Positions 26,015 through 49,311 of a stretch of 64,000 nucleotides of DNA are shown in pieces. Position 1 is the stretch's first letter, and the number at the start of each line of letters is the position of its first letter. This DNA is from Natronolimnobius sp. AArcel1. Lineage in GTDB: Archaea > Halobacteriota > Halobacteria > Halobacteriales > Natrialbaceae. Where the stretch lies: NCBI RefSeq assembly GCF_011043775.1, contig NZ_JAAKXY010000002.1, forward strand, positions 558,001 through 622,000. Direction: 5' to 3'. Under the pieces are notes generated by a model. The model did not search any database. It was not told the origin of the DNA and worked only from the letters and a program-made list of their open reading frames with translations. The translations under genes and the position numbers were made by a program.

Positions 26015-26064
26015 CATCCTCCACACGGCTGAAGCCGTGGGATTCCGCGTTGGGATATTGTGGT

Positions 26065-27390
26065 TTACGACGTGATCTGTTCTTGAGGTGCAAATGCACC
26101 AGTTTCCTTGTCAAACAGGAACGTCGATGGCTGTGCCAACCAGCCGTTACTCCTATCTCCCCCATCACAGGCGAGACTCGGAGATACTTGTTGTCGAATG
26201 TTCTCTGCGCCGTTGACGTCCGCGTTCATCACTGCCCCGCAGTCATCGCACACGTACAAGCCGCGTTCAACACGGTTTGCCTTGCGCTCCTGACCACAAC
26301 ACGAACACGACTTCGACGTAGCCCGCTCGGATACGTGCTCAACCGTGATGTCTTCCATCTCCGCCTTGTATTCGAGCAGGTCGGTGAAGCGATCGAACGC
26401 CCACGAGTGCAGGTCGAGGTTGCCGTGCGTACCCCAGTCCTTTGAGTCGCCGTTCCCCCCATCTTCGCGGATACCGGAGAGGTTACCCACTACAATCGTT
26501 CCAACACCCGCCTCAACACACCGTTCAACGATGTGCTTTGAGAGTGTATGGAAGTAGTGGGTTCGGCGAGCCGACTTCTTCTGATGCAACCGATTCGCTT
26601 GCTTGGAGTCGGCGTCGTCACACCGGGCAATCCGCTTGCTGAAGTAGTAGTCGTCCTGTTTCAGGCAGTTCAGCGGATACAGCTCGGCATGGCCATCTTC
26701 GTAGGCGAGTGCGGCGAAGTTGGTGATGCCGAGGTCAACACCCACGGTCTTCTCACCCGGTGCTTCGGCCACTTCGATCTCGACTTTACACACGAAGTGG
26801 AGTTCCCATTCGTCACCCGTCCAGACCGCTCGTACTTGTTGAACACTTTTAACTTCAGAGAGGTCAACGTCCGGACGAGTCTGGTACTCACAGAGGATGA
26901 AGTCCGACCAGTTTTCCTTGAGGTTCGACCCCTTTGAGAGTCGAACGCGGTCGTACTGGGTGTCGAGTTTGAAGCCAGCGGCTTTGAATGTGACCGTGCT
27001 TCGCGGATGGTCGTCGCCGTGTTTGCGGTAGCCGGGCGGGTTCGCTCGTTTGTCTCCGTTGCGTCGTTTGCCGTACCAGCCATTAAACGCCTCAGCGAGT
27101 TCTTGAAGAACGCGCTGGCTTGACTGAGAATGGAGGTCATCGTAGCGTTCGTGGCTCTTGAGATACGCGGTGAGTTCGTCGTGTTCAGGGATGTAGTCGA
27201 TTTCGTCCCAGACACGACTGATTGTCCACCGTCCGACGTCGTGAGACTACGTCTCACGGGCTATCAGACGTAGTCTGATAACGTTCCAGAGTTTTGAGAC
27301 GGCGAACCCGAGCGAATCAAGGTCGTCAGACACCTGTGACTGGTTCCTGATGGAAGCAGTGTAGGTGCGGGTGACGACCTGTTTCGCCAT
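26065..27390 (-). pseudogene. tnpB: TnpB (IS605 OrfB), interrupted by an in-frame TAG
   Basis: RNA-guided nuclease relative of Cas12. The reading frame starts MAKQVVTRTYTASIRNQSQV and runs to the TAA at 26065-26067, but a 45-bp insertion at 27236-27280 adds 15 codons including TAG at 27247-27249. The insertion keeps frame: SKLWNV before it and GRWTISRVWDEID after it are normally adjacent in this family. Downstream, RuvC motif I (GVDLGITNFA), the four-cysteine zinc ribbon (CSCCG and CDDCG) and motif III (NADVNGAENI) are intact. The usual RuvC-II glutamate position reads VVGNLSGI. Without readthrough only 46 residues plus insert would be made. Confidence 0.8.
27236..27284. repeat. 41-bp double-hairpin insertion flanked by ACGT
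   Basis: The inserted core 27240-27280 consists of two back-to-back palindromes: 27241-27257 (7-bp stem, TAC loop) and 27262-27280 (8-bp stem, GTA loop). ACGT at 27236-27239 and 27281-27284 flanks it like a 4-bp target duplication. It interrupts tnpB. Confidence 0.75.
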
Positions 27391-38525: not shown

Positions 38526-38762
38526 TTATAACCAGTTGTCTCCCGTCGTGTCTTCGTCCGCTTCGCGGTGGGTTTCGACCGCGGCCGCGAGATTTTCGAC
38601 GGCCGTTCGCTCGTCCGGCCCTTGGCTCGAGACGCCCGTGATCTCGTCTTCGGCGATGTGGAGGCCGTTCTCGTCCACCCACGTTTCGACGTCTGCATCC
38701 ACGAGTTCGTCGTACTCGTCGGGGTCGACTGGCTCGGCTTCGCCGTCTCCGTCGGAACTCAT
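38526..38762 (-). CDS. Small HicB-like acidic protein
   Basis: 78 residues. TWVDENGLHIAEDEITGVSS and GPDERTAVENLAAAVETHRE resemble the partial RNase-H-like fold of HicB antitoxins, common in haloarchaea without a HicA partner. None is seen next to it. Function uncertain. Confidence 0.65.
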   Translation of the reverse strand: MSSDGDGEAEPVDPDEYDELVDADVETWVDENGLHIAEDEITGVSSQGPDERTAVENLAAAVETHREADEDTTGDNWL

Positions 38763-44448: not shown

Positions 44449-44551
44449 GGGCACGTAGCTCAGTCCGGAAAGAGCGTCGGACTTCTATCCTCGCCGCGTC
44501 TGCGGTGGGGGAAGACATCCGACGGTCGTGGGTTCAAATCCCATCGTGCCC
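44449..44551 (+). tRNA. tRNA-Arg(TCT) with 29-nt intron
   Basis: Acceptor arms GGGCACG (44449-44455) and CGTGCCC (44545-44551) pair fully. D arm GCTC/GAGC, anticodon stem TCGGA/TCCGA, T arm GTGGG-TTCAAAT-CCCAT. Anticodon TCT at 44484-44486 reads AGA. The loop is split after position 37 by an intron at 44488-44516, the canonical archaeal site; the mature length is 74 nt. The flanking sequences can form a splicing bulge-helix-bulge, not fully verified. Confidence 0.93.
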
Positions 44552-44649
44552 GTGAAGCCGCCGAGTACTACGAGGCGTGCTGAACCGCAGCACGCAGAGG
44601 ATTTGAATCAGGGAGCAGCTTGCTGCGACCGTGGTTCAAATCCCATCGT
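44531..44649. repeat. Duplicated tRNA 3' segment (att-like)
   Basis: GGTTCAAATCCCATCGT at 44531-44547 inside tRNA-Arg recurs at 44633-44649. A partial T-arm copy like this is the usual footprint of tRNA-targeted integration. It marks the left side of the AT-richer island. Confidence 0.65.
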
Positions 44650-44870
44650 ACTCTTGATTTTTGACGAGTAGGATAACTCGAGCAGTTCTGCGTTGGCGGG
44701 GTGTTCTCACTGGTGAAGGGTCGTGGTCTCGAGAAGGCCTGCCAGGTTTACAGGAATCCGACCCGTCTCTGTATACCATCTCTCCAGTTGAAGCACATGA
44801 AATAAGAGTGTAGATTCGACCCTCTAATCAGTCAAAGGTTATTTATCATATCCCTATAGATTTCGATTAG
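44552..44870. other. Intergenic: att-like scar and hairpins
   Basis: Besides the tRNA fragment there is a perfect hairpin at 44575-44595 (8-bp stem GCGTGCTG/CAGCACGC, 5-nt loop) and an inverted copy of the T-arm (GGATTTGAA at 44609-44617). From about 44700 base composition shifts to AT-rich. No gene. Confidence 0.5.
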
Positions 44871-45902
44871 ATGAGTACAGAAAGGCTGGATGAGGAATTC
44901 GAGTATGAGGGTCGACTCGTATTTAACGGAATCTACTCTACGACAATCCTCGATTCTGGCTTTGAATTCGATGAAATCGTCAGCAAAGAACTGACCGACT
45001 TCTCAGAAGGGAATATCGAATCTACAGGTCGTGGGTATCGGTCAATTCCATTTCAGAAAATGGTGTCAAGCGAACCGAGAGTTGGCGATCAGATTGAAGA
45101 TTTTCTTGAGAAGATCAACGCACTTCAGTACCGCGAAGAGATATGGGAATATCATGAGGTAGAGGTGGATGGCGAAGTGGAAGAAGCACCGGTCAAAACC
45201 GGTGAATCCTCCTTCGATGCATTCTGGGCTAAGCCTAACTATCTCTTTGTCCGGGGGAAAAAGACAGAAGCGGATCAAGCAGGTGAACTACTTTCAGGAA
45301 CTCTGAAAGAGTATCTCGACATTAGGGAAATAGAGTTTTCTCCAGACTTTCTTCTCTGGCTCTTTTCAAAAGAGAAAAATAGCGAAGTGCTCCCCGGTCC
45401 ACTATCGGTCAACATGTTGACTGATGCACGTGTGGAGAGCGACGAACCTGACTTATTCGGCCAACAAGGTCAGGTTGCGGATTCGATCGATGTGACAAAA
45501 TCGACCCCGGTTCTGATGGGCGTCTTACGGCAGATGGGCATAATCCAGTTGGAGGGCGTTTTCAGCATTTCGGGGGTTTTCCTCCGAGTGCGAATTTCAT
45601 CGGAGGGGCGTATACACGTTCTCGCAGACCACGCAATAAAAGGATCACCCGATATCGAACGCATGGCAGTCTCCATTGCTTTTCTCAAAGAGTTCATTGA
45701 CCTTTTTGATCAATGGCAACGCATGGAGAGTGAGCGAAAATACCCTCCTGAACAGTTCTTTGAGGATATCTACAAGGAGTGCAAACGGCAGGGCGTTGAG
45801 ATTCAGTTCTCTATTGATGACGTAATCCGTGAGTACAGACAGAAAGGTGGCCCTGAGGAGTATAATCAGTATCAATCAGGGATTGACGAATTCTCAGACT
45901 AA
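44871..45902 (+). CDS. Island protein A, unrecognised
   Basis: 343 residues, not recognised. Soluble, acidic, mixed alpha/beta with no signal peptide or membrane segment. Segments of note: FWAKPNYLFVRGKKTEADQA and FSISGVFLRVRISSEGRIHV, which look like beta hairpins. Codon use is AT-richer than in flanking genes (many AGA, ATA, GAA), implying transfer. First gene of a three-gene cassette; 59 bp separate it from the next. Confidence 0.7.
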   Translation: MSTERLDEEFEYEGRLVFNGIYSTTILDSGFEFDEIVSKELTDFSEGNIESTGRGYRSIPFQKMVSSEPRVGDQIEDFLEKINALQYREEIWEYHEVEVDGEVEEAPVKTGESSFDAFWAKPNYLFVRGKKTEADQAGELLSGTLKEYLDIREIEFSPDFLLWLFSKEKNSEVLPGPLSVNMLTDARVESDEPDLFGQQGQVADSIDVTKSTPVLMGVLRQMGIIQLEGVFSISGVFLRVRISSEGRIHVLADHAIKGSPDIERMAVSIAFLKEFIDLFDQWQRMESERKYPPEQFFEDIYKECKRQGVEIQFSIDDVIREYRQKGGPEEYNQYQSGIDEFSD

Positions 45903-45961
45903 CCATAGTCTGAAGCAGGACCCGGAAGACTTTCACACTAAAGAACGAAAGCAGAATAACG

Positions 45962-46597
45962 ATGGCCGAAACCAACCTTCGCAAGGCAAGCGCCTCAACG
46001 GATCGTTTAGAGGATTCGCTACGCGGGGTTTCGAAAGGCCAAGTTTCGATCAAATCTGTAGATAGCAAGACAGTTGAGCCAATTGTCGAGCAATATCCCT
46101 TCCGCACCCAGGATATCATTCTGGGCAGATTATCTTACAAGGAAGAATCTAATTATACGTCAGGTCGGACGATCCCGGTTGACTTCCAGTTCCGGACAGG
46201 GTCGAACTTATTCCTCACTGAGGTACAAACAGATATTCCATCGCTCGACCTGGTGACCACTCAATTTACCGAAGCTACCTCGAGAGCGCTGAAGATCTAT
46301 CGAAATCTGCATGCACCAGAGGATGCACTCTGGGACTTCCTTATGATTGCTGATCGGATACTTGAGATTACAGTTCTCGATCAGGGAGAGGAAGTACGTT
46401 ATGAAGATGTTGACGGCGTTGATCGAGAAGATGTTGTGGGGGGGTATGCAATAGAAAGTGCTTCCGTTGGGTTTGTCGAGAAAGGGAACGAGATATTCGT
46501 AGAGTATCGAGGTGGGAGTATTCAGGTAGAATCGGAGTGGGAGCTGGGCCGTGAGTATATCGTGCAGACCTTTGAGCGAGAGGTTCTCTCTGAATAA
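45962..46597 (+). CDS. Island protein B, unrecognised
   Basis: 211 residues, not recognised. N-terminal helical stretch (RKASASTDRLEDSLRG), then a beta-rich region (IPVDFQFRTGSNLFLTEVQT) and a C-terminal beta part (GNEIFVEYRGGSIQVESEWE). No membrane helices. It is 11 bp upstream of the membrane-anchored third gene and likely cotranslated. AT-rich codon use like its neighbours. Confidence 0.65.
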   Translation: MAETNLRKASASTDRLEDSLRGVSKGQVSIKSVDSKTVEPIVEQYPFRTQDIILGRLSYKEESNYTSGRTIPVDFQFRTGSNLFLTEVQTDIPSLDLVTTQFTEATSRALKIYRNLHAPEDALWDFLMIADRILEITVLDQGEEVRYEDVDGVDREDVVGGYAIESASVGFVEKGNEIFVEYRGGSIQVESEWELGREYIVQTFEREVLSE

Positions 46598-46608
46598 TTC
46601 GGTGAGAG

Positions 46609-47241
46609 ATGGCAGGAACCGGCATATCTGTTTTGAGTTCGGTCCAAGCAGTCCTTCGGAGGTATATCAATCACTTCACAAATACTAATGCATATTTTAT
46701 GGTAAGTCTCGCTATCCCATTGCTCATCGGGATCTCGGGACTCCTCCCCGATCCACAGCTACAATGGATTGTCGGGGCATTTTCCCTGCCAATTCTTTTT
46801 GCAGCATTCGTTCACGCATACTGGACTGGGCGCCCATTCGGAATCCGAGTCTCTTGTACACCAACACACCTCGTCAGCGGTGAGCGCGAGCCAGATAAGC
46901 CCTCTGAGAGACGTGACAATATCTTAATACAGAATGACTCCACGAAAGTTCACGGAGTGATGGAATTAACGCAATTCAACAGTAGCTTTGACATCCGGTT
47001 TGACTCGTCATCTGAGATTGGGGTCGAATTAGAGACGAGGCCGCGACGAGAGCATTCGTACAACCCGGAGACGAATCGGTTGTCCTGTACAGATGTTTCG
47101 GACCGACAGTTCCCGATCAAGCTCGATGTCTATCCCCGGGGTAGCGTTCAAAGTGCTGGCCGATATCATTCGCTGACAATCCGGGACAGTGAGACTGGCC
47201 ATGCTCTTTCTAACTTTGAAGTCATTGACGTTCGCGCTTAG
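46609..47241 (+). CDS. Island protein C: two membrane helices plus beta-rich domain
   Basis: 210 residues. Two adjacent helices (YFMVSLAIPLLIGISGLL and LQWIVGAFSLPILFAAFVHA) form a hairpin anchor, followed by about 130 residues with regular beta-strand pattern (GIRVSCTPTHLVSG, DIRFDSSSEIGVELE, FPIKLDVYPRG, YHSLTIRDSETGHA). This two-helix plus beta layout is seen in membrane effectors of several immune systems, but no sensor or cyclase is here. GGTGAG lies just before the ATG as a possible ribosome-binding site. Confidence 0.65.
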   Translation: MAGTGISVLSSVQAVLRRYINHFTNTNAYFMVSLAIPLLIGISGLLPDPQLQWIVGAFSLPILFAAFVHAYWTGRPFGIRVSCTPTHLVSGEREPDKPSERRDNILIQNDSTKVHGVMELTQFNSSFDIRFDSSSEIGVELETRPRREHSYNPETNRLSCTDVSDRQFPIKLDVYPRGSVQSAGRYHSLTIRDSETGHALSNFEVIDVRA

Positions 47242-47501
47242 CGAAATCTCACTTAAATTGTCATTGTAAACAGCACCAACGGGTGCTTTGTTGGGACTAA
47301 AATTGTGGCTGAGGTCAAAGGACTAGATCAACCTCCCGTCTCTACACGATTGCCAAGGCGACAACAGCGAAAAGTAACAGCATCCCATTCCAACCACTGT
47401 GTGAGAATATCTAGTTAATGCTCACGAAATGCCGTGGATCCTATGGAGATTCAAGTAGGATAGCCACACTAATTGACAGTATGTAATAACAGGGTAAATG
47501 A

Positions 47502-48407
47502 CTAATGAATCGGCTCATGTTTGTCTGTATCTGATCTTCTTACATCATCAGAAGTGAGGTCATCAGGCCCCATAGAATCTACCGCTTCGCATACAGTATT
47601 ATAAAACCAATCATCTGCCTGAGGGGCCACACGAATTTGATTAATAACATCGGTTGCTCTGATCTCTATATGCTTTGTCGGGTCCTCTGGCGTTTTACAA
47701 GCGTTAACTACACCTGTTTCACCATTGATGTACGTTAATAAGGGAAATTTCTTCCTTTTCGTTTCTCCTTCTTTTTCATAAACAATGTTATAATCAACAG
47801 ACTCAAATTCTTCCTCAGAAATTATATCAAGGTCACAATAGATTATTCTGAGTTCATTTTCGTGTGAAAAACTCCTTCTCTTTATAAATAATGGAGAAAC
47901 CAGCTCTGATGAAGCCTCGTCAGCAAAATCTTCTAATTTATCTCGCTCATCATTGCTTAGCTCTTCAAAATCTGAATAGAAATTTAGATATTCTACTGGG
48001 CGTGAAAAAAGATCTCGGTCGTCTTTCTCAAAACCAGTCACCAATGAACTAGGATCACTGACAATGGCAATCCCTCTATCACCATAGTGCTCCCACATTG
48101 ATGCAGATTCTTTGTCATTTCTATGCCAGCAATTACCATAGGACGATTTACCAATAAATTCAGTAAGAGAAGACAGAATTTCGGTTATATCGTCATCCCA
48201 TTCATCTGAATCTTCGTATTCATTTTCTCGCAATTGAACGTAGGCGTTTGGAACGGTACCTTCATATGGATCATCAAAATTTGAAATACGTCGAAATAAC
48301 AATTTTTCAGTCCTTAAAATATCCAAGAAGTGATCAAACCCTACATATCTCCAAAGGTCTTCGTCACAACTTGTAATATAGTACTTTTCATCATCTGTTA
48401 TTGGCAT
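47502..48407 (-). CDS. DUF2971 family protein
   Basis: 301 residues. WRYVGFDHFLDILRTEKLLF, then CWHRNDKESASMWEHYGDRG and GIAIVSDPSSLVTGF are the hallmarks of DUF2971, as is RRSFSHENELRIIY. Members are scattered among mobile islands and some defence loci; biochemical activity unknown. Strongly AT-rich codon use, unlike the core genes. It lies convergent with the A-B-C cassette. Confidence 0.85.
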   Translation of the reverse strand: MPITDDEKYYITSCDEDLWRYVGFDHFLDILRTEKLLFRRISNFDDPYEGTVPNAYVQLRENEYEDSDEWDDDITEILSSLTEFIGKSSYGNCWHRNDKESASMWEHYGDRGIAIVSDPSSLVTGFEKDDRDLFSRPVEYLNFYSDFEELSNDERDKLEDFADEASSELVSPLFIKRRSFSHENELRIIYCDLDIISEEEFESVDYNIVYEKEGETKRKKFPLLTYINGETGVVNACKTPEDPTKHIEIRATDVINQIRVAPQADDWFYNTVCEAVDSMGPDDLTSDDVRRSDTDKHEPIH

Positions 48408-48788
48408 GCTCTATTTGCGTTTGCTAAGGTCTAAAAACCGGTGGTGCTTCGATTCTTTTCTTCCCCATTATAGATCCAAAGGGTTACACGTCGGATAAAA
48501 CACGGTTCTCGAATATGCACATGAGACGACGGTACCTTGTGCGCATCTTGGTTGCTAGTCAGGTTTCCGATCCACCGAATTGTCCAGTAGAGTGATAGAA
48601 GAACTATGTTTTGGGCAGAATAGGCTGGTTTAGCGAGTCGAAAAACAAGATTTTGCTGGTCGTGTGTTCCAATGATGTAGATTTGAACTGGAGGTGACTA
48701 CGCCTGCCGAGAAAGCGCACTCGAGCGAGCAACCATACTAGAACTGCAACAGACGAGTGTACTGTTCCCTCCCACCCACGAACAGTAG

Positions 48789-48795
48789 TTATAAG
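48789..48795 (+). promoter_or_regulatory. TATA box of the RNA candidate
   Basis: TTATAAG, 25-31 bp before the 5' strand of the closing stem at 48820. This is the expected archaeal distance from TATA box to transcription start. Confidence 0.6.
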
Positions 48796-48819
48796 TCACA
48801 ACACGACAATAAACCAACC

Positions 48820-48899
48820 GGAAGCCAAACCGGGCATGAGTGAAATGCCCCGGGTGGAACCAGCACCCGAGACGGCTTCCAAAACCCTCCTGGGGTTTT
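48820..48899 (+). ncRNA. Candidate structured RNA with three-way junction and terminator-like hairpin
   Basis: GGAAGCC (48820-48826) pairs with GGCTTCC (48874-48880), a perfect 7-bp closing stem. Inside are two hairpins: GGGCAT/ATGCCC (48832-48837 with 48845-48850, loop GAGTGAA) and CGGGTG/CACCCG (48851-48856 with 48864-48869, loop GAACCAG). Directly after the closing stem, AAAACCC/GGGTTTT (48881-48887 with 48893-48899) makes a hairpin with 5-nt loop. A TATA box stands 25 bp upstream. No known RNA family was recognised. The fold is symmetrical enough that the opposite strand could also pair, but the promoter favours this one. Confidence 0.6.
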
Positions 48900-48999
48900 G
48901 CAAGCATGATTCCGTTCATTCTACCGGGACATAAACATCCCGCACGACAGTCGAATCGCTCCCCTCGAGAGCACCATCCACACCCGGCGGCAACAGCCG

Positions 49000-49311
49000 A
49001 TGGCCGCTGATCGCGATGGGAAACCGGACTGTGGCACAGATGCAGACGCCGACGGCGGAACAGACTCGGACGCCGACGCCGGTGAGAGAACTAACTCGAG
49101 ACCCGACACAGACGACCCCGACACGGACACCAACCCAGACTCGAGTTCGTCCCAACCGCTCTCGAGGACGCCCTCGAGTCGCCCGTGCCCGGCCTGTGAC
49201 GCCCGCATTGTGGGCGTGACGGTCCTCGGCCCGACGACGGCGTTCGCCCGCCCCTGTGGCTGTCGGGTGTCACCGGAGGTGTTGCACCAGCTCGACGCTG
49301 ACGGCAACTGA
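49000..49311 (+). CDS. Zinc-finger-like small protein
   Basis: 103 residues. The first 55 are Asp/Thr-rich low complexity; the C-terminal part CPACDARIVGVTVLGPTTAF followed by RPCGCRV has two cysteine pairs (CPAC and CGC) for one zinc. Similar small zinc proteins occur throughout haloarchaea; role unknown. Confidence 0.75.
   Translation: MAADRDGKPDCGTDADADGGTDSDADAGERTNSRPDTDDPDTDTNPDSSSSQPLSRTPSSRPCPACDARIVGVTVLGPTTAFARPCGCRVSPEVLHQLDADGN

Follow-up and report, generated by a model that had tools for sequence, protein, structure and literature searches.

We found a structured RNA at positions 48789–48899 of a 64,000-nucleotide stretch of Natronolimnobius sp. AArcel1 DNA (contig NZ_JAAKXY010000002.1; the whole stretch is called the window below) that is a member of no Rfam family. 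Comparison with related sequences indicates that it is one copy of a large family of folded leader RNAs, which is previously undescribed and is widespread across one archaeal order. Conserved features of the sequences make it probable that the leaders of this family act as translational switches for the genes that follow, and, by analogy to phage phiH, they may be controlled by antisense RNA. A scan of the whole window with Rfam release 15 returned only a sot0042 RNA and a tRNA, both elsewhere, and a permissive scan of positions 48400–49000 gave chance-level matches only. In the literature we searched, no publication describes this haloarchaeal leader RNA.

Structure of the RNA

On the + strand, a TATA box, TTATAA (48789–48794, within CAGTAGTTATAAGTCAC), provides a sense promoter, whose motif CAGTAGATATAAGT is conserved in paralogues. 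Behind it, GGAAGCC (48820–48826) and GGCTTCC (48874–48880) form P1, a 7-bp closing stem whose 3′ strand is common to two mutually exclusive pairings. P1 encloses the hairpins P2 (48832–48850; GGGCAT at 48832–48837 paired with ATGCCC at 48845–48850, 6 bp with the 7-nt loop GAGTGAA) and P3 (48851–48869; CGGGTG at 48851–48856 paired with CACCCG at 48864–48869, 6 bp with the apical loop GAACCAG at 48857–48863). The terminal hairpin P4 (48881–48899) pairs AAAACCC (48881–48887) with GGGTTTT (48893–48899) over 7 bp and is followed, still on the + strand, by the pre-start segment GCAAGC (48900–48905). The folded RNA is thus a three-way junction of P1, P2 and P3 plus the hairpin P4, about 85 nt in all.

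Direct reading of the sequence finds every stem from P1 to P4 perfect. This agrees with the first-pass annotation, which had listed the TATA box, the closing stem, the two hairpins with 7-nt loops and the AAAACCC/GGGTTTT hairpin, and had considered their co-occurrence unlikely by chance. The minimum-energy fold of 48800–48905 consists of the described stems (−40.6 kcal/mol, z = −3.84), and none of 200 dinucleotide shuffles of this segment was equally stable. For the complementary strand, fold prediction gives z = −1.70. When the fold is extended to 48950, a fifth hairpin, P5, is added (z = −3.94). A K-turn in P2 was considered and rejected, as it has no consistent GA partner strand.

Compensatory changes preserve the pairs across 105 aligned copies. 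Double-sided changes occur in 29 of the 31 pairs and 90% of cells are paired, counts that lean towards the covariance model because the alignment had been fitted to it. By stem, such changes affect 7 of 7 pairs in P1 (all compensatory), 6 of 6 in P2, 4 of 6 in P3 (99.5% of cells paired), 7 of 7 in P4 (75% of cells paired) and 5 of 5 in P5. None of 500 shuffles reached any of five covariation measures, and, as a control, the covariation score collapses when the partners are slid by 1–3 columns. The covariation analysis that had been proposed as a check on this candidate finds its stems maintained. The idea of a novel structured RNA that has a TATA promoter of its own is supported. G-U pairs outnumber A-C pairs by 22 to 6 in P1 and by 35 to 9 in P2, an excess by which the + strand is the predicted RNA. 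An ORF on the minus strand, beginning at the complement of the conserved ATG, was rejected as non-coding because its distance to P1 varies by numbers not divisible by three.

Size and distribution of the family

By DNA similarity with the window sequence, six clear copies are present in the source genome, and 67 of 125 Natrialbaceae genomes contain copies. A covariance model seeded from 40 copies (R1) finds the RNA in 85 of these 125 genomes. Single genomes hold as many as 26 (G031) or 29 (G086) copies, with more candidates scored. A second model (R2), built from a wider alignment and applied at E ≤ 1e-4, detects the RNA in 208 of 392 genomes of the order, and raises the count in the source genome to eight. 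On a phylum-wide draw, all 38 genomes with R2 matches belong to the order, among the matches listed. The E-values of the covariance models are rough, owing to a shortened calibration. The genera include Natrinema, Natrialba, Halopiger, Halovivax, Halostagnicola, Natronorubrum and other Natrialbaceae. In the plasmid records we examined, the RNA is annotated in none.

Many of the measurements below come from 164 distinct Natrialbaceae units, which were picked by a pattern that fixes letters of P3 and of the P1 3′ strand; the conservation of these two parts within the set is therefore partly by construction. Promoter spacing, ORF overlap and loop variability are not fixed by the pattern.

The leader ORF and the downstream gene

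In 116 of 164 units, P1 follows the first base of the TATA box at a distance of 30 nt, and transcription is predicted to start at or just before the P1 5′ strand. An invariant ATG 3′ of P4 opens a short leader ORF with a median length of 39 amino acids, whose peptide resembles MIxYILPGYKRPAR (163 units). In 140 of the 163, the next ORF encodes a small Cys4 protein, and in 123 of the 140 its start codon lies at −4 (73 units), −8 (35) or −11 (15) relative to the leader stop. In the window, contrary to the first-pass statement that the site has no ORF, the leader ORF MIPFILPGHKHPARQSNRSPREHHPHPAATADGR begins right after P4 (48906–49010, + strand), and the start of a 103-aa Cys4 protein (CPxC…PCGC, 49000–49311, + strand) overlaps its stop by 11 nt. 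This protein matches no Pfam or NCBIfam family at curated cut-offs; its orthologue and paralogues occur 3′ of nearly every copy of the RNA.

Translational coupling that depends on such overlaps has been documented in haloarchaea (PMC6728339, PMC10666635). The coupled pairs in those studies likewise have −4 stop/start overlaps, but they consist of two ordinary genes, whereas here a leader peptide follows a structured RNA. The Cys4 proteins are comparable to the small CPxCG zinc-finger proteins of haloarchaea such as Brz (PMC2253796), which are also small and carry four cysteines. However, their second motif is PCGC rather than CPxCG, they have no Pfam family and an RNA precedes the gene.

Codons 2–14 of the leader ORF are fixed at the nucleotide level. 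Lysine codon 10 is AAA in 161 of 161 units (versus 45% in the downstream ORFs), tyrosine codon 9 is TAT in all (versus 18%) and alanine codon 13 is GCA in 132 of 137 (versus 9%). Given this bias, codons 2–14 hold a further signal, which is seen as P5. In the window, P5 is the inverted repeat CGGGACATAAACATCCCG at 48925–48942, within the leader ORF and with no strand given. An inverted repeat was found in 140 units, and in 134 of them it is centred 28.5 nt away from the start-codon A. We predict that P5 is an RNA hairpin and/or an antisense promoter, with an AT-rich centre lying some 28 nt away from the start codon. A TATA box on the antisense strand is clear in Natrialbaceae, and not in every lineage.

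Alternative pairing of the P1 3′ strand

Two partners are available to the P1 3′ strand: it can base-pair with the P1 5′ strand and also with the bases immediately ahead of the start codon. At the locus, GCTT (48875–48878) can pair with AAGC (48902–48905), which extends P4 to a long hairpin ending at the start codon. When P1 was blocked in folding, the P1 3′ strand took at least five pairs with the pre-start segment in 139 of 164 units, and the cost averaged about 5 kcal/mol. The two segments vary in a matching way across lineages (GGCTTC/GAAGCC, GGTTTC/GAAACC, GGGTTC/GAACCC, GGTCTTC/GAAGACC and GGATTC/GAATCC). A first automatic test, which allowed any helix, gave a weak signal (52% versus 21% with at least six pairs). 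As a point against the model proposed below, minimum-energy folding predicts no P1 for 52 of the 164 units. This capacity of the P1 3′ strand to pair with the pre-start bases suggests that two alternative folds act as a translation switch.

A hypervariable loop on a conserved stem

The P3 stem is nearly invariant, and its loop of 6–7 nt takes 86 forms in the 164 units. Across 55 pairs of closely related units, the average difference is 40% in the loop and 13% in the Cys4 ORF; the P3 3′ side and the P1 3′ strand differ by 1%, being partly fixed by the search pattern. The extreme is a pair of units (L068 and L201) whose ORFs differ by 1% and whose loops differ by 71%. Eight Halopiger copies share a near-identical run around P3, yet all their loops are different. 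These belong to an amplified subfamily in one genome (G012, L304–L313) with near-identical RNA cores and differing P3 loops, and in most of the eight a coupled Cys4 ORF was not found.

Of the distinct loops, 71% have a UNR turn at positions 2–4, either in the loop itself or in the complementary sequence, versus 25% of shuffled loops (highest shuffle 38%), and YUNR begins the loop in 49% versus 12%. Antisense systems that work by loop–loop contact are reported to have a YUNR motif in either their sense or their antisense loop (PMC4485353). The loops fall into two classes, CT.. and ..AG, each of the type expected for the reverse complement of the other (53 of 86 loops versus 12 expected); hairpin inversion by template switching could be an alternative source of these two classes. 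Complements of the P3 loop are not in excess within the same unit. Within three genomes, loops are repeated once versus 4.9 times expected (P = 0.03), which is only suggestive of distinctness beyond chance. A hypervariable P3 loop rich in potential U-turns fits antisense control.

Architectural likeness to phage phiH and plasmid R1

In phiH1 (NC_052650), the start of the early transcript T1 is at 38582 and that of the PadR gene at 38733; on the opposite strand, the antisense RNA T(ant) begins at 38732. As summarized in PMC4284463, which cites Stolt and Zillig (1993), T(ant) directs cleavage of T1, which becomes a substrate of host RNases. The T1 leader resembles the family in several ways. A P1-like stem, in which GAGCAGG pairs with CCTGCTC, lies 1 nt past the mapped start, the leader ends in GAGC|ATG at the PadR start codon, the segment ahead of that codon could form pairs with the 3′ strand of P1, and an inverted repeat is located at about +29. 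Moreover, the leader of phiCh1 carries GAGCAAGC/GCTTGCTC, a co-change in P1 relative to phiH. In the family, the P5 centre at +28.5 is the position expected for the TATA box of an antisense RNA starting opposite the start codon. On the other hand, the T1 leader is 151 nt long and has other inner hairpins. Model R2 does not detect it, and its only match in phiCh1 is weak and elsewhere than the leader. The link to phiH is thus a likeness of architecture, drawn by eye and from predicted folds, in which R2 scores no phiH leader. In the literature we examined, the T1 leader is nowhere recognised as a member of a family.

Plasmid R1 of bacteria offers a second comparison. Its CopT/tap/repA region has a structured leader, a coupled short leader ORF and a loop that is recognised by an antisense RNA. 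The family shares the structured leader and a short leader ORF coupled, as we predict, to the regulated gene. By contrast, the R1 system is bacterial, Shine-Dalgarno based and single-copy, it has no sequence relation to the family, and the antisense RNA here is putative. Two traits of CopT and T1 have apparent counterparts in the family, namely a structured leader that ends at a start codon with predicted coupling to the regulated gene, and a candidate recognition loop with UNR or YUNR in the sense or antisense RNA.

Association with mobile elements

Near-identical units occur at unrelated sites, with homology of about 480–530 bp that extends from just before the promoter to just past the stop. 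One 219-kb contig contains at least 13 copies. Outside Natrialbaceae, the RNA heads operons of provirus or plasmid type, with genes for tyrosine integrases, PadR regulators, RAMP-like and RepA-OB-like proteins. Model R2 matches SNJ2 before the recombination-integrase operon (E 4.7e-6) and Humcor2 5′ of an integrase operon (E 9.6e-5), and the leaders of BJ1 and Humcor1 follow a similar plan by eye. The Natrialbaceae pattern had no match in IMG/VR, nor did the window sequence match phage records.

Some individual loci have other properties. One unit (L042) has on either side a copy, about 70 bp long, of a helix-hairpin-helix-like gene's 3′ end, an arrangement resembling the outcome of an insertion. 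At two loci, in two genomes, the RNA is followed by a RAMP-like (CRISPR-type) protein: at L354 (4562–5533) the match to Pfam RAMPs is below cut-off (E 0.0067), and at L132 the assignment is by resemblance only.

In the window, a tRNA gene at 44449–44552 (Rfam E 1.7e-10) was missed by ARAGORN; its length of 104 nt suggests that it carries an intron. A strain-specific, low-GC island (44660–48760) is situated between this tRNA and the RNA unit, and a related genome (G096) has other DNA there. No direct repeat joining the island ends and no duplication of the tRNA end of at least 10 bp was found. The island includes a DUF2971 protein (47502–48407, − strand) that matches the candidate defence family PDC-S31 (E 1.3e-22). 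The sot0042 sense overlapping transcript RNA is at 26021–26189 (− strand, E 8.6e-42).

Proposed function and alternatives

We consider it likely that the RNA is a cis-acting structured 5′ leader that controls translation via alternative pairing of P1, with the P3 loop as a recognition element. The structure, promoter spacing, leader ORF with its overlap, alternative pairing and hypervariable loop are read from the sequence; that the folds switch, and that translation is the controlled step, we infer by analogy. Transcription from the TATA box would begin at P1, and the folded RNA would end at the leader ORF start codon. With the P1 3′ strand paired to the 5′ strand, the start site would be open. 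With the same strand paired to the pre-start segment, a long hairpin would abut the start codon. Since the leader stop overlaps the start of the regulated gene, translation of both is proposed to be coupled. The P3 loop would be the variable recognition element; its most plausible partner is an antisense RNA encoded in cis and, like T(ant) of phiH, initiated opposite the start codon. That such an RNA acts on the leader is a possibility to which we give slightly less than an even chance.

The same alternative pairing could instead serve a riboswitch that binds a ligand, or a site through which the small Cys4 protein regulates its own expression by binding. The aptamer-like three-way junction with conserved core stems, the expression platform ending at the start codon and the Cys4 protein directly 3′ of most Natrialbaceae copies would suit this explanation. 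However, it is unlikely: in other lineages the RNA is followed by quite different genes (integrase, PadR, RAMP-like, RepA-OB-like), a single genome can hold up to 29 copies, and conservation is lowest in the loop that is most exposed. Still less probable is a small RNA, stand-alone or processed, that acts in trans and simply happens to have ORFs behind it. The first-pass annotation had raised this option, and the RNA does have its own promoter, a 5′ end at the closing stem, a compact fold and a terminal hairpin. Yet no T-run follows P4, the start codon comes at once, the leader ORF and the gene overlap in 123 of 140 units and the structure runs on into the ORF as P5. We thus regard the RNA as a 5′ leader, followed by a short ORF whose end overlaps the small Cys4 protein gene.

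It is very improbable that the palindromes are selected as DNA, in a MITE, a recombination site or a transposon end, although the presence at unrelated sites of units some 500 bp long, whose homology stops close to the promoter and terminator, could be so explained. The G-U bias favours one strand, promoter spacing and overlapping ORFs are conserved, no terminal repeats were noticed at the ends compared and tnpA and tnpB are absent from the units examined. The earlier suggestion of a remnant end of a mobile element survives in part: proviruses and plasmids commonly carry members of the family, which there lead operons and do not form transposon ends. Nor did we see support for an RNA-guided element: there was no adjacent tnpB or element end, and the units lead into genes for Cys4 proteins, integrases or PadR regulators.

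If the leader reading with antisense control is extended to the whole family, phiH T1/T(ant) would be its only studied example. Each copy would be silenced by its own antisense RNA, and P3 loops would diversify rapidly so that dozens of paralogues avoid cross-reaction, amounting to an RNA incompatibility code for archaeal mobile elements. We offer this extension tentatively, as somewhat less probable than antisense action on the leader itself.

To our knowledge, natural cis-regulatory RNAs are hardly known in haloarchaea. The RNA described here is abundant, widely distributed within one order and tied to provirus and plasmid integrases and regulators, is absent from Rfam and has been missed by annotation. 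With it, the isolated 1993 report of antisense control in phiH gains a possible family, and the putative switch, the leader peptide and the fast-changing putative recognition loop are now testable in laboratory haloarchaea.
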